Positions 28,053 to 31,788 of a DNA stretch of 64,000 nucleotides are shown in pieces. How positions within the stretch are numbered: position 1 is the stretch's first letter; every line of letters starts with the position of its first letter. The stretch is taken from positions 1-64,000 of the forward strand of contig JAJPHZ010000022.1 in NCBI GenBank assembly GCA_021325025.1. Reading direction: 5' to 3'. The position numbers were made by a program, and so were the translations under genes. This stretch comes from Pseudomonadota bacterium. GTDB lineage: Bacteria; Desulfobacterota; Binatia; Binatales; Binataceae. The notes below the pieces were generated by a model. It saw only the letters and a list, made by a program, of their open reading frames with translations, had not been told where the DNA came from and ran no database searches.

Positions 28053-29885
28053 TCAACTCCGAGCCGCATTGGAAAAGACCATGCGTTGTATTGCGTGAGC
28101 GGCGCCGCTGATGGCCAGGGTCATGACCGGCGCCGCAACAATCATGAATAGCGCCAACAGGAAGGGCAGCCAGTTTTCATCCTGCGCGTAATGCTGCATC
28201 GTAAGGGTAATGCCGCAGGCCTCGAGCAGCCCCGGCACCAGCCACCAGGCGGCTTCGCCCGCCGTCAACGCGGTCAGGATCAGCCATCCAGGCCGCCGCG
28301 CCAGCGCGAGCGTCGCGGCCACCGCCACCAGCAGCGTCACCGCGACCGAGCCCAGCGCGGTCGCCGGCCACAGCGCCGGCGGCGGCCACGAGGTCGCCCC
28401 CGCGGTTACACCGAAGCCGCGCTGCAGAAGTGCGGTAGGGGCCACGACCAACAGCCAGCCCGCGCCGATCGCGAAAATCGGTGCCCGTCGGCTGGCGTAT
28501 CCACCCAACAGGAGTAACCCTGCGGCCAGCAATGCCGCCAGGAATGCCACGCGGTACCGGTGCAGCCGGTAGGCGACATAAGGCGTGCCAACGCCCGACC
28601 AGATGTCGTGCGAGGCTTCAAGCGCCAGCGCGGCCGGCATCCGATCGCTAACGCCAAGGATTTCGCCCAGATGTGCGCATCGGCCCGGGCCGCATCGGTT
28701 GACTGCGAGGGCACAGTCGATCGCCCCGCGGGCGGCGTCTGCAGACAGGTTTTTGCTGGCGGCAAATTGGGCCAGTGCAGCGCGCGTGATGGCTGCCCGG
28801 CGTTGATAAAGAGCACGCTGCAATCCGGTTTCCTCGACTTTAGGTATCGCAATCGGCGCCGACCTGATGAGGGCCGCGCGTGGCCCGGCAAGCGGACCCG
28901 CTGGTATTGGCGGCGGTGGCGGCGGCGCCCCAAGGACCATCATTGCCAGCGGCCGCGATGGCGGTTCCAAGGCGATCAAAATCGCGGCCAGGGCCCCGCT
29001 GGCTTCCTGGCTGCCGGTCTGTCCGGCCAACCCGGTAAGAATCTCGGCAGCATCCTCGTCGCTGGACTTTTCAGCCACCAACCACTTCTTCAGCAGCCGC
29101 CCCTGAGTTCGCGCGTCGATTTGAGCGCGGCTAGCCGCGAGCAACTGATCGGCGTTTCGCAACTGCCCGAAGCGATCGAGCGTCAGGTAGGCTTCGCCAC
29201 GCACGCGGCGGTCGGGGTCATGCGCCGCGGCGCGCCACAGTACGGCGAAGTCAGGCGCGGTCTTGCAGTTGCGTAGTGCGATTGCCGCGGCCGCGCGCAC
29301 GTCGGGGTCGGGGTCCTCGCTCAGGATGCGGCTCAGAGCCGGAGTGGCATCGCGCGGCCACAGCGTATAGGTCAGTGCCGCCCGGGCGGAAGCGTCGGGA
29401 ACGGCGGCCAGGCGCGCTGCCACCATGTGTGTCGCTTCCGCATCATGGGCAAGCTGCGGCGAGACCAGCGCCTCCCCGACGGCGTCGGTTATCTCCAAAG
29501 GGCTGCGCATCGGGGCGGGTTTGGTCAATGCGTCGAGCAGGGCGCCGAGCGCGCCTTTGCCGGCGCACTGCCTGAGTGATGCGAAGAGTTGATTGTCGTC
29601 GAAGGGTTGGCCGGAGCTGAGAAAGCGCGGCAGCATCGACCGCACGCGGGCCTCACATCCGGCCTCCGCCGCTGCAAGGCTGCTGTGCTCGCTGGCGGCA
29701 ACCAGAGCGGCAGCGATAGCCACAAGTCTCAATCCCCGCGTGACGGCTGCCTCCGATGGCCACACGCGGGCAGTATAGATGGTTCTGGGTGCGGCCGGAA
29801 GGTGAGCCAGGGCCGCCGGCGGGACTTCGAATAGCCGCTCTGCCGATTTTTGCCCGCTCCGGGCGTGGCGCAGGGGGCAGCGCAT
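28053..29885 (-). CDS. HEAT-repeat protein with C-terminal membrane domain, function unknown
   Basis: The frame encodes up to 610 residues. After a hydrophobic signal-like stretch (LRLVAIAAALVAASEHSSLA) come HEAT/PBS-lyase-like helical repeats (DPDPDVRAAAAIALRN, DPDRRVRGEAYLTLDRFG). A proline-rich linker (GAPPPPPPIPAGP) and a second helical stretch follow, then about five transmembrane helices. The true start is uncertain. Residues before the hydrophobic segment look unlike coding sequence, and a TTG at 29732 or a nearby GTG with GGGGA upstream would give a normal signal peptide. HEAT repeats usually mediate protein contacts. I recognise no enzyme motif. Confidence 0.65.
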   Translation of the reverse strand: MRCPLRHARSGQKSAERLFEVPPAALAHLPAAPRTIYTARVWPSEAAVTRGLRLVAIAAALVAASEHSSLAAAEAGCEARVRSMLPRFLSSGQPFDDNQLFASLRQCAGKGALGALLDALTKPAPMRSPLEITDAVGEALVSPQLAHDAEATHMVAARLAAVPDASARAALTYTLWPRDATPALSRILSEDPDPDVRAAAAIALRNCKTAPDFAVLWRAAAHDPDRRVRGEAYLTLDRFGQLRNADQLLAASRAQIDARTQGRLLKKWLVAEKSSDEDAAEILTGLAGQTGSQEASGALAAILIALEPPSRPLAMMVLGAPPPPPPIPAGPLAGPRAALIRSAPIAIPKVEETGLQRALYQRRAAITRAALAQFAASKNLSADAARGAIDCALAVNRCGPGRCAHLGEILGVSDRMPAALALEASHDIWSGVGTPYVAYRLHRYRVAFLAALLAAGLLLLGGYASRRAPIFAIGAGWLLVVAPTALLQRGFGVTAGATSWPPPALWPATALGSVAVTLLVAVAATLALARRPGWLILTALTAGEAAWWLVPGLLEACGITLTMQHYAQDENWLPFLLALFMIVAAPVMTLAISGAAHAIQRMVFSNAARS

Positions 29886-30040
29886 AGCAACTTTTATTAA
29901 TAATTAGTTTTCATATCTATTTATTCTCGCCAATATGTAGAACATATTAATCTAGTAGTATAAGCTCAATTTTACCGGCCGGTTATTATTATCAACTGAA
30001 AGTATAGAGTCTCGAACCGTAAATTTAGGTAAATTTCAGC
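29886..30040. other. AT-rich island
   Basis: This stretch is conspicuously AT-rich (runs such as TTTATTAATAATTAG and TTATTATTATC) in a genome that is otherwise GC-rich. There is no ORF. It lies upstream of a promoter-like pair of boxes and the leader of the TadG-like gene. It may be an UP-element or nucleoid-protein-silenced region, or a sign of acquired DNA. Confidence 0.6.
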
Positions 30041-30070
30041 TTGACTCTGCCGATTTACTAAGCTTACAGT
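30041..30070 (+). promoter_or_regulatory. Sigma70-like promoter for the TadG-like gene
   Basis: TTGACT at 30041-30046 and TACAGT at 30065-30070 are separated by 18 bases and preceded by an AT-rich region. Transcription would start near 30077, just before the first hairpin of the leader. This is the clearest promoter-like sequence seen in the window. Confidence 0.55.
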
Positions 30071-30076
30071 AGGCTA

Positions 30077-30396
30077 AGCAGAGGGAAGCGAGACTTATTC
30101 CCTCTAACCTCAGGTGCATAGCCGCAACGCCGGGTGGGCAAACCGCACCTGGGGTGTTTTACGCGCCGGTATGGCGGCGTGGAAGTTTTTAGCGGCGAGT
30201 AACGTGGTACACCGCTTACACGACCGGCGGCTGGGCGATCCGCAGGGAAGCCGTGTGAGCCGCTGGGCGTTTTTGCGACGTTTGATTGAGACGACACGTG
30301 CTCCGCGCAGCGGGGCAGTCAGACTGCCACGGTCCGGCCCCGCCGGCGGAGCATCAGGCATAACACATGGGTGAGGACACCCAGGGGGTACCTGAT
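30077..30396 (+). ncRNA. Long hairpin-rich 5' leader, candidate structured RNA
   Basis: About 320 bases between the promoter and the TadG-like start contain a series of stems. One has 8 bp (30080-30087 with 30098-30105) and loop GCGAGACTTA. One has 10 bp (30108-30117 with 30145-30154, one G-U) and a 27-nt loop ending GGGCAAACC. A bulged hairpin lies at 30161-30180, a longer stem-loop around 30226-30273, a GGCAGTC/GACTGCC hairpin near 30314-30328, and CCGGC/GCCGG just before the gene. No known riboswitch consensus fits in full. No convincing ORF is present. Confidence 0.5.
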
Positions 30397-31473
30397 ATGG
30401 ATAGCTTACCCGAAGATCAGCGGAATTCCAAACCCCGATGCTTGCCGCGGCGGTCCAGGGCACGCTTGCGGGGCCAGGCACTGGTGATGATGGTGGTGGC
30501 CTTGCCGGCCTTTGTGGGTGCGATGGGACTGGCGATGGACGTGGGCAACCTCTACTTAAACCATCGCCGCGCACAAACCGCGGTGGACGCGGCCGCGCTG
30601 TCGGGCGCCACCTGTCAGGCGTTGAACCCGGGCTGCACCGATGGCAGCGGCGTCGCAACACAGACCGCCACTGCCGACGATCCGTACATGACGCTTAATC
30701 CCAACCCGGTTGCGGCCCCGTTCTTCGACGACGCCTATTGTCCTTCTGCCACTTACAAGGTTCCATGTGAGGTCACGGTTTCCGCGACCCAGACCGTGCC
30801 GTTTTACTTTGCGCGGCTGGTCGGGGTAAACACCGGCGCCATCAGTGTCACCGCCACGGCAGTCGGGGGGCCTTTTAACAGCTATTCTCCTCCCGGCGGT
30901 ACCGGCAACATGATGCCGATCGGCCTTCAATATACGACCCCGTATAAAGATCTGGACTCGATTCCCCTGGCATACAAGTTTTCCAGCCCCTCCAGCGGCG
31001 ATTCCATTCCCGGGCCCGGGGATTGGGGATATCTGGCGATCGGTGGCAGCGGCGCGGCCCAACTCACGACGAACATCATCAACGGCGCTCAGGGAACCAT
31101 GGCGATCTGGGATGGCACTTCAACCTCCAAGACGGCGCCCAGCGAATTCGTGCAAAGCGAACCGGGTGTCTCAACCGGCTTCAAAGACATGGCCAAATAC
31201 CGCACCTGTCCCGGGGAGACCCCAACCAGCTTCTCCCCTGACAGTCCATGCGCTGTCTGTATCCCACTGGTGGACTGGACGGGATGTACCGGTAAGTGCA
31301 CCGTTCCCATCATGGGTTTTGCCGAATTCTTCATCACCGACGTGACCGACCACGGATCGTCGGGTACGGTGAGCGCAACCTGGATCGCCTCCATCTGCCG
31401 AGGCGGGCGGTTTTCTCCCACCGGCTCCGGGCCCGTCAAAGAGGGCGCAATCGCGGTTCAACTGATCAATTAA
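30397..31473 (+). CDS. TadG-like pilus-assembly protein (TadE/G N-terminal domain)
   Basis: The 358-residue protein starts at ATG 30397, preferred over 30367 because GGGGGT lies seven bases upstream. The N-terminus has basic residues, then GQALVMMVVALPAFVGAMGL and AMDVGNLYLNHRRAQTAVDA, AALSGA. This is the TadE/TadG-like prepilin/anchor segment found in Flp pilus and von Willebrand-type surface proteins. The remaining 280 residues form a Cys-containing secreted domain (about ten cysteines) of unknown fold. No other tad or flp genes are nearby, so it works alone or with a distant locus. Confidence 0.8.
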   Translation: MDSLPEDQRNSKPRCLPRRSRARLRGQALVMMVVALPAFVGAMGLAMDVGNLYLNHRRAQTAVDAAALSGATCQALNPGCTDGSGVATQTATADDPYMTLNPNPVAAPFFDDAYCPSATYKVPCEVTVSATQTVPFYFARLVGVNTGAISVTATAVGGPFNSYSPPGGTGNMMPIGLQYTTPYKDLDSIPLAYKFSSPSSGDSIPGPGDWGYLAIGGSGAAQLTTNIINGAQGTMAIWDGTSTSKTAPSEFVQSEPGVSTGFKDMAKYRTCPGETPTSFSPDSPCAVCIPLVDWTGCTGKCTVPIMGFAEFFITDVTDHGSSGTVSATWIASICRGGRFSPTGSGPVKEGAIAVQLIN

Positions 31474-31541
31474 AGCGTCAAGCGCCGGCCGCCACTTGAT
31501 CGCCGCGCGGGTTGCGTGCGCTGCAAATGCGCTGGCCGGAT

Positions 31542-31618
31542 TGGCGCGCCCTGAGGGATTTGAACCCCCGACCCTCAGATCCGTAGTCTGATGCTCTAAT
31601 CCGCTGAGCTAAGGGCGC
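31542..31618 (-). tRNA. tRNA-Arg(ACG)
   Basis: The reverse strand folds into a complete cloverleaf. The acceptor stem GCGCCCT pairs with AGGGCGC. The D arm is GCTC...GAGC. The anticodon stem TCAGA/TCTGA encloses the loop CTACGGA (anticodon ACG). The T arm GGGGG/CCCTC encloses TTCAAAT. The discriminator is G and CCA is encoded (31542-31544). ACG is read as ICG after deamination and decodes CGU/CGC/CGA. Confidence 0.96.
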
Positions 31619-31788
31619 GCGGTTGGAATTGCAATTATATTGGTTTGCCGCACTCTGGCAAGGCCAGGTCTCCTTCTACCGCGCAAAACGGTGCTCTAAC
31701 GCTGACCGTGCTGCCACCCGATTCCATTCCCGCGTCTGGTGCGGTGGCGGGCGTCGTGCGATTCTCCAATGCTGGTGGGAGGAGCGTC

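Follow-up and report, generated by a model that had tools for sequence, protein, structure and literature searches.

The 64,000 nucleotides analysed, referred to here as the window, contain a pilus-like surface gene encoding a TadG-like protein (Pfam matches PF13400, E 3.5e-12, and PF09977, E 5.7e-6) that is preceded by a promoter match and by an untranslated leader of ~320 nt, counted from the promoter to the ATG at 30397 (Table 1). Around it lie a HEAT-repeat gene (other strand), a tRNA-Arg gene and a GST-like gene, and we therefore regard it as a lone TadG-like gene, in keeping with the initial annotation of this DNA. In a genome of the same genus (G001:C152), three TadG-like genes follow one another immediately after a TadC-like gene, the latter name being taken from reading the translation and not from a family search; given this arrangement the gene in the window may be a detached copy.

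The promoter match consists of TTGACT (30041-30046) and TACAGT (30065-30070) separated by an 18-nt spacer, exactly as had been proposed, and transcription would start at approximately 30076-30078. In the 1.9 kb scanned, three promoter-like sites were found versus 0.8 expected. The AT-rich island reported next to the promoter was confirmed as well, with a GC content of 0.31 at 29900-30049 versus 0.60-0.71 in the flanking stretches. Exact matches to the pattern ATTTNNGYAARTTNNNNCTTGAC were detected, among the three genus genomes searched, only at 30023-30037 and in a second copy of the leader (see below); the pattern was derived from these same two sites, such that the result reports its rarity and is not an independent discovery. 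No inverted repeats were detected in 29800-31750, and a mobile element was rejected on this ground.

Table 1. Features of the promoter, leader and TadG-like gene region (positions are those of the window)
Feature	Position	Strand	Basis
AT-rich island 5' of the promoter	29895..30022	.	Low GC; AT-rich sequence there in the second copy too
Upstream box ATTTAGGTAAATTTC adjoining the -35	30023..30037	+	Exact-match pattern search
Sigma70-like promoter, TTGACT-N18-TACAGT	30041..30070	+	Promoter scan; alignable to the promoter of the second copy and to those of two TadG-like genes in the same genus
5' hairpin P1, 8 bp, loop of 10	30080..30105 (30080-30087/30098-30105)	+	Sequence, MFE; a hairpin of 9 bp is present at the 5' end of the second copy
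Stem P2, 10 bp, one G-U	30108-30117 with 30145-30154	+	Sequence; pairing probability 0.85 (computed at 37 C on leader plus 60 nt of coding sequence)
Long-range closing helix, predicted, tentative	30165-30170 and 30173-30175 with 30337-30347	+	Two-copy consensus fold; one two-sided and one one-sided change kept
Central helix, tentative	30203-30204, 30208-30217 with 30248-30257, 30261-30262	+	Consensus fold, in which three two-sided changes and a single one-sided change are kept
GC-rich extended hairpin	30298-30306 with 30346-30354, plus inner pairs (30298..30354)	+	MFE; best conserved leader stretch
Start-site domain	30353..30396	+	AUCAGG (30353-30358) pairs with CCUGAU (30391-30396); pairing probability ~0.85 for CAGG/CCUG
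Lone TadG-like gene, 358 aa	30397..31473	+	Pfam PF13400 and PF09977; start by Shine-Dalgarno spacing and second copy

The suggestion that the gene has a long structured leader was substantiated by the folding analysis. The MFE of 30072-30400 is -151.9 kcal/mol compared to a mean of -132.6 (sd 5.2) for dinucleotide shuffles (z -3.7), and 0 of 100 shuffles were as stable; the leader of the second copy is likewise more stable than expected from its composition (z -2.65). Both stems annotated at the 5' end, of 8 and 10 bp, are present. The 5' strand of P2 takes a different partner in the plain MFE fold of 30072-30400, and in the second copy a stem can be drawn at about the same position in a slid register; a possible homology of P2 between the copies thus requires a register slide, and this stem was left out of the covariation count. 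The long-range closing helix is considered tentative because local hairpins compete with it in the single-sequence MFE folds. We also noted that CAGGUGC (30111-30117) is complementary to GUACCUG (30388-30394), which precedes the start codon, and that the second copy has an identical CAGGUGC in the loop of its 5' hairpin and GCACCUG before the start. A pairing of this type can be drawn in both copies, though it is unproven, and the CAGGUGC bases of the window favour the local stem P2 over the GUACCUG partner.

At the start site, the UCAGG/CCUGA stem encloses a hairpin, GGGTG-AGGA-CACCC (30369-30382), corresponding to the one annotated at the start codon, as well as the Shine-Dalgarno sequence AGGGGG (30383-30388). 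The program-made list of open reading frames places the start at an in-frame ATG at 30367, which lies inside the start-site domain and lacks a Shine-Dalgarno sequence. Since AGGGGG is located 8 nt before ATG 30397, and the same register is seen in the second copy, the true start is probably ATG 30397 and the mechanically assigned start wrong. In the second copy the Shine-Dalgarno sequence is also 8 nt before the ATG, the start-site sequence is kept, and in the predicted folds the Shine-Dalgarno sequence can be placed inside the UCAGG/CCUGA stem just 5' of the AUG in both copies. Specifically, the start region of the second copy folded alone gives UCAGG/CCUGA and a GGGCU/GGCCC hairpin in the same place. 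In its full-length fold UCAGG instead pairs with an upstream CCUGA, with a probability near 1, and the AUG is mostly open.

This second, diverged copy is present in the same genome (G000:C22:41121-41488), with a leader of 329 nt. It was detected in a search of the genome with the window leader, which returned a single additional significant match (G000:C22:41402-41456; 84% identity over 55 nt, corresponding to 30310-30364 in the window; E 7e-8 in one genome) ending 32 nt before the start codon. The correspondence extends beyond these 55 nt to the AT-rich upstream stretch, the box ATTTNNGYAAATTT, CTTGAC, the Shine-Dalgarno sequence and the ACCTGAYATG start. Identity between the leaders is ~53% overall, with ~50% in the body and a maximum in 30307-30343, and the leader-leader alignment scores z 10.9 against shuffles. 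The gene 3' of the second leader encodes a secreted-looking protein of 672 aa with sub-threshold family matches only, which is not homologous to the TadG-like protein. Hence, as judged from the sequences, promoter and leader have been duplicated, or retained, separately from the gene. Gap lengths between the copies (3, 7, 4, 3, 4, 2 and 1) argue against a coding leader; a coding leader or a decayed gene was rejected because the indels are mostly not multiples of three and mismatches occur in all three codon phases.

Is the fold shared between the two copies? Their consensus fold has an energy of -74.0 compared to -48.5 (sd 5.1) in column shuffles, with 0 of 100 shuffles as low (z ~-5), a value of which part reflects GC-rich stacking as the shuffles preserve conservation classes and not dinucleotides; other alignments gave z -4.7. 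In the consensus fold 18 of 70 pairs are changed on both sides. Shuffled alignments average 14.0 such pairs and 8 of 100 reach 18, and by count covariation is therefore not established. Moreover, the comparison comprises two sequences from one genome, too few to prove covariation. The built-in controls of the pair counter favour structure, with the reservation that the structure was derived from the same two sequences and the controls are hence not independent. The single-sequence folds of the two copies disagree in many helices.

With respect to known RNA families, permissive Rfam scans of the leader revealed no family above noise, the best being a sub-threshold antisense match (E 2.2), while the whole window at gathering thresholds gave tRNA-Arg only, and nothing significant was found for the second copy. 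The initial annotation had pointed to a likeness to the c-di-GMP-I riboswitch (GEMM, RF01051), of which the leader contains the short string GGGCAAACC. Riboswitches of this class can precede pilus and surface genes. However, the leader has no covariance-model match to RF01051, and by these tests the string is thus a chance resemblance; nor was RF01051 matched in the window's own genome, two same-genus genomes or nine other genomes of the family, and so the proposed link was not upheld. Another genome of the same class (G044, L155-L157) has eight c-di-GMP-I riboswitch matches over the cut-off, compared to none in the twelve genomes tested from the window's family.

The TadG-like proteins most similar to that of the window are in the same-genus genomes G002 (61-67% identity) and G001 (57%). 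A region of 5 kb in G002 (G002:C1, L070 3567-8609) contains three TadG-like genes. The two nearest to the gene in the window (+ strand) each have a CTTGAC promoter of their own and leaders of 320-349 nt, and thereby resemble it in promoter and leader length. These two leaders are related to each other (z 5.0), but cannot be reliably aligned with the window leader (z 2.5 and 0.8), and they have no excess folding stability (z +1.4 and +0.5) and, in contrast to the two window-type copies, show no shared-fold effect. In G001 the TadG-like gene directly follows the TadC-like gene, which leaves no room for a leader. The leader is consequently not a conserved property of TadG-like genes: among the nearest homologues it is unalignable, unstructured or absent, an outcome that the initial annotation had itself named as counting against its proposal, and the copy in the same genome sustains a narrower version of the claim. 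Of the suggestion that it represents an undescribed structured class, the absence from Rfam and the fold shared with the diverged second copy stand, whereas a class of leaders specific to TadG-like genes does not.

Searches with two models, one of sequence (R1) and one that includes structure (R2), identified no third copy in ~540 other genomes. These comprised overlapping sets of 57 relatives, 148 genomes of the same class and 395 genomes of the phylum; the larger searches applied stricter filters, so that weak matches could be missed. The two copies are the only significant R2 matches in their own genome. Three weak R2 matches (in G031 and G014) were rejected, being located in coding-like sequence without a leader-like context. 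Searching the three genus genomes for promoter and start-site patterns gave no further leader, and the candidates on G001:C32, G000:C25 and G000:C43 were rejected on inspection since their contexts are ordinary or coding. The phage and plasmid collections gave no match to the leader, and neither did a DNA pattern search of viral contigs. A scan of the genome collection returned one locus, in the same-genus genome titled Centralia_MAG_278.

Taken together, these data point to an RNA control element that is real, though of very local occurrence, and not to a known or widespread riboswitch. The explanation that we tentatively favour, at a little short of an even chance, is a lineage-private structured 5' untranslated region, acting in cis, through which translation of two surface proteins is kept low or conditional. 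A sigma70-type promoter would generate a transcript with ~320 nt before the start codon, which would fold into a 5' hairpin, a branched GC-rich body and the start-site domain. The Shine-Dalgarno sequence would be held in a stem-loop closed by UCAGG/CCUGA, directly 5' of the AUG, and ribosomes would need the stem to be opened by breathing, with the help of a protein or through refolding of the upstream hairpin, thereby damping translation. The UCAGG of the second copy would have an alternative partner in the upstream CCUGA. Because, by predicted energies, it pairs at the start when the region is folded alone and upstream in the full-length fold, a two-state mechanism is possible, and it may respond to a signal. 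Promoter and leader would have been duplicated as a unit within the lineage and could in this way co-regulate two unrelated genes. The excess stability of both copies, their shared-fold energy, the 84% identity over 55 nt, the kept Shine-Dalgarno spacing and the presence of a homologous leader before an unrelated gene are in favour of this explanation; the limitation to two sequences, the unremarkable compensatory count, the differing single-sequence folds and the fact that the TadG-like genes of the nearest relatives work without a window-type leader are against it. Like structured 5' leaders with a sequestered ribosome-binding site, the window leader is long and has its Shine-Dalgarno sequence in a stem directly before the start, but it differs in matching no known family and in being limited to two copies in one genome.

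The main rival is a serious one because the G002 leaders are unstructured: an old duplication of promoter and leader could have been kept mainly for its promoter strength and functional ribosome-binding site, with the structure being a GC-rich by-product or a plain mRNA stabiliser. We consider this quite possible, at about one chance in three. Conservation peaks at the upstream/-35 stretch and near the start codon with a body of ~50% identity, same-genus leaders of similar length (~320-350 nt) have a promoter and no excess structure, and the compensatory count is not unusual, all as anticipated for shared ancestry without sensing. Against such an origin stand the stability of both leaders relative to dinucleotide shuffles, a shared-fold energy far below that of shuffles, and the best conserved 55 nt (30310-30364), which constitute a hairpin 5' of the Shine-Dalgarno sequence, outside promoter and ribosome-binding site. 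At the opposite extreme, a large and previously undescribed class of structured RNA might control the surface proteins of the lineage, with a metabolite- or protein-driven switch of UCAGG between start codon and upstream partner; we regard this as unlikely. A riboswitch of a new class, or a switch of c-di-GMP type, controlling the two surface genes appears slightly less probable still. It would fit the placement before surface genes, the branched fold and the start-site domain, for which the second copy offers a possible alternative partner. Known riboswitch classes are, however, usually widely spread, and this leader was not recovered in ~540 other genomes, a strictly conserved pocket is not definable from two sequences, and the Rfam and GEMM results speak against it.

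It is very unlikely that the promoter drives a separate small RNA or that transcription from it is attenuated. A terminator-like hairpin with a T run is indeed present (30162-30181 plus tail), but terminator-like matches are common by chance (2.1 expected, with 6 found, these on both strands and mostly inside the gene) and the second copy has no T run at the corresponding place, for which reason terminator-based attenuation was rejected. An RNA thermometer, with a start-site stem that opens as the temperature rises, is the least probable of the readings. The Shine-Dalgarno sequence is in a short stem, and a same-genus genome bears the title Centralia MAG, Centralia being a heated-soil site; yet RNA thermometers are usually much shorter, and the predicted opening is modest, with the unpaired Shine-Dalgarno fraction rising from 0.39 to 0.51 (window) and from 0.20 to 0.50 (second copy) between 20 and 60 C.

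If the favoured explanation is correct, a poorly studied soil lineage has a promoter-leader cassette with RNA structure before two unrelated surface genes, and regulation would move independently of the gene that it controls. With two copies the general importance is modest. The locus also illustrates a limit of structure calls made from a single window, as the fold is missing from the leaders of the nearest homologues. Finally, adjoining the second leader's gene, on the other strand, is a secreted peptidase-like gene (L039 7599-9641; Pfam Peptidase_M11, E 8.5e-12).
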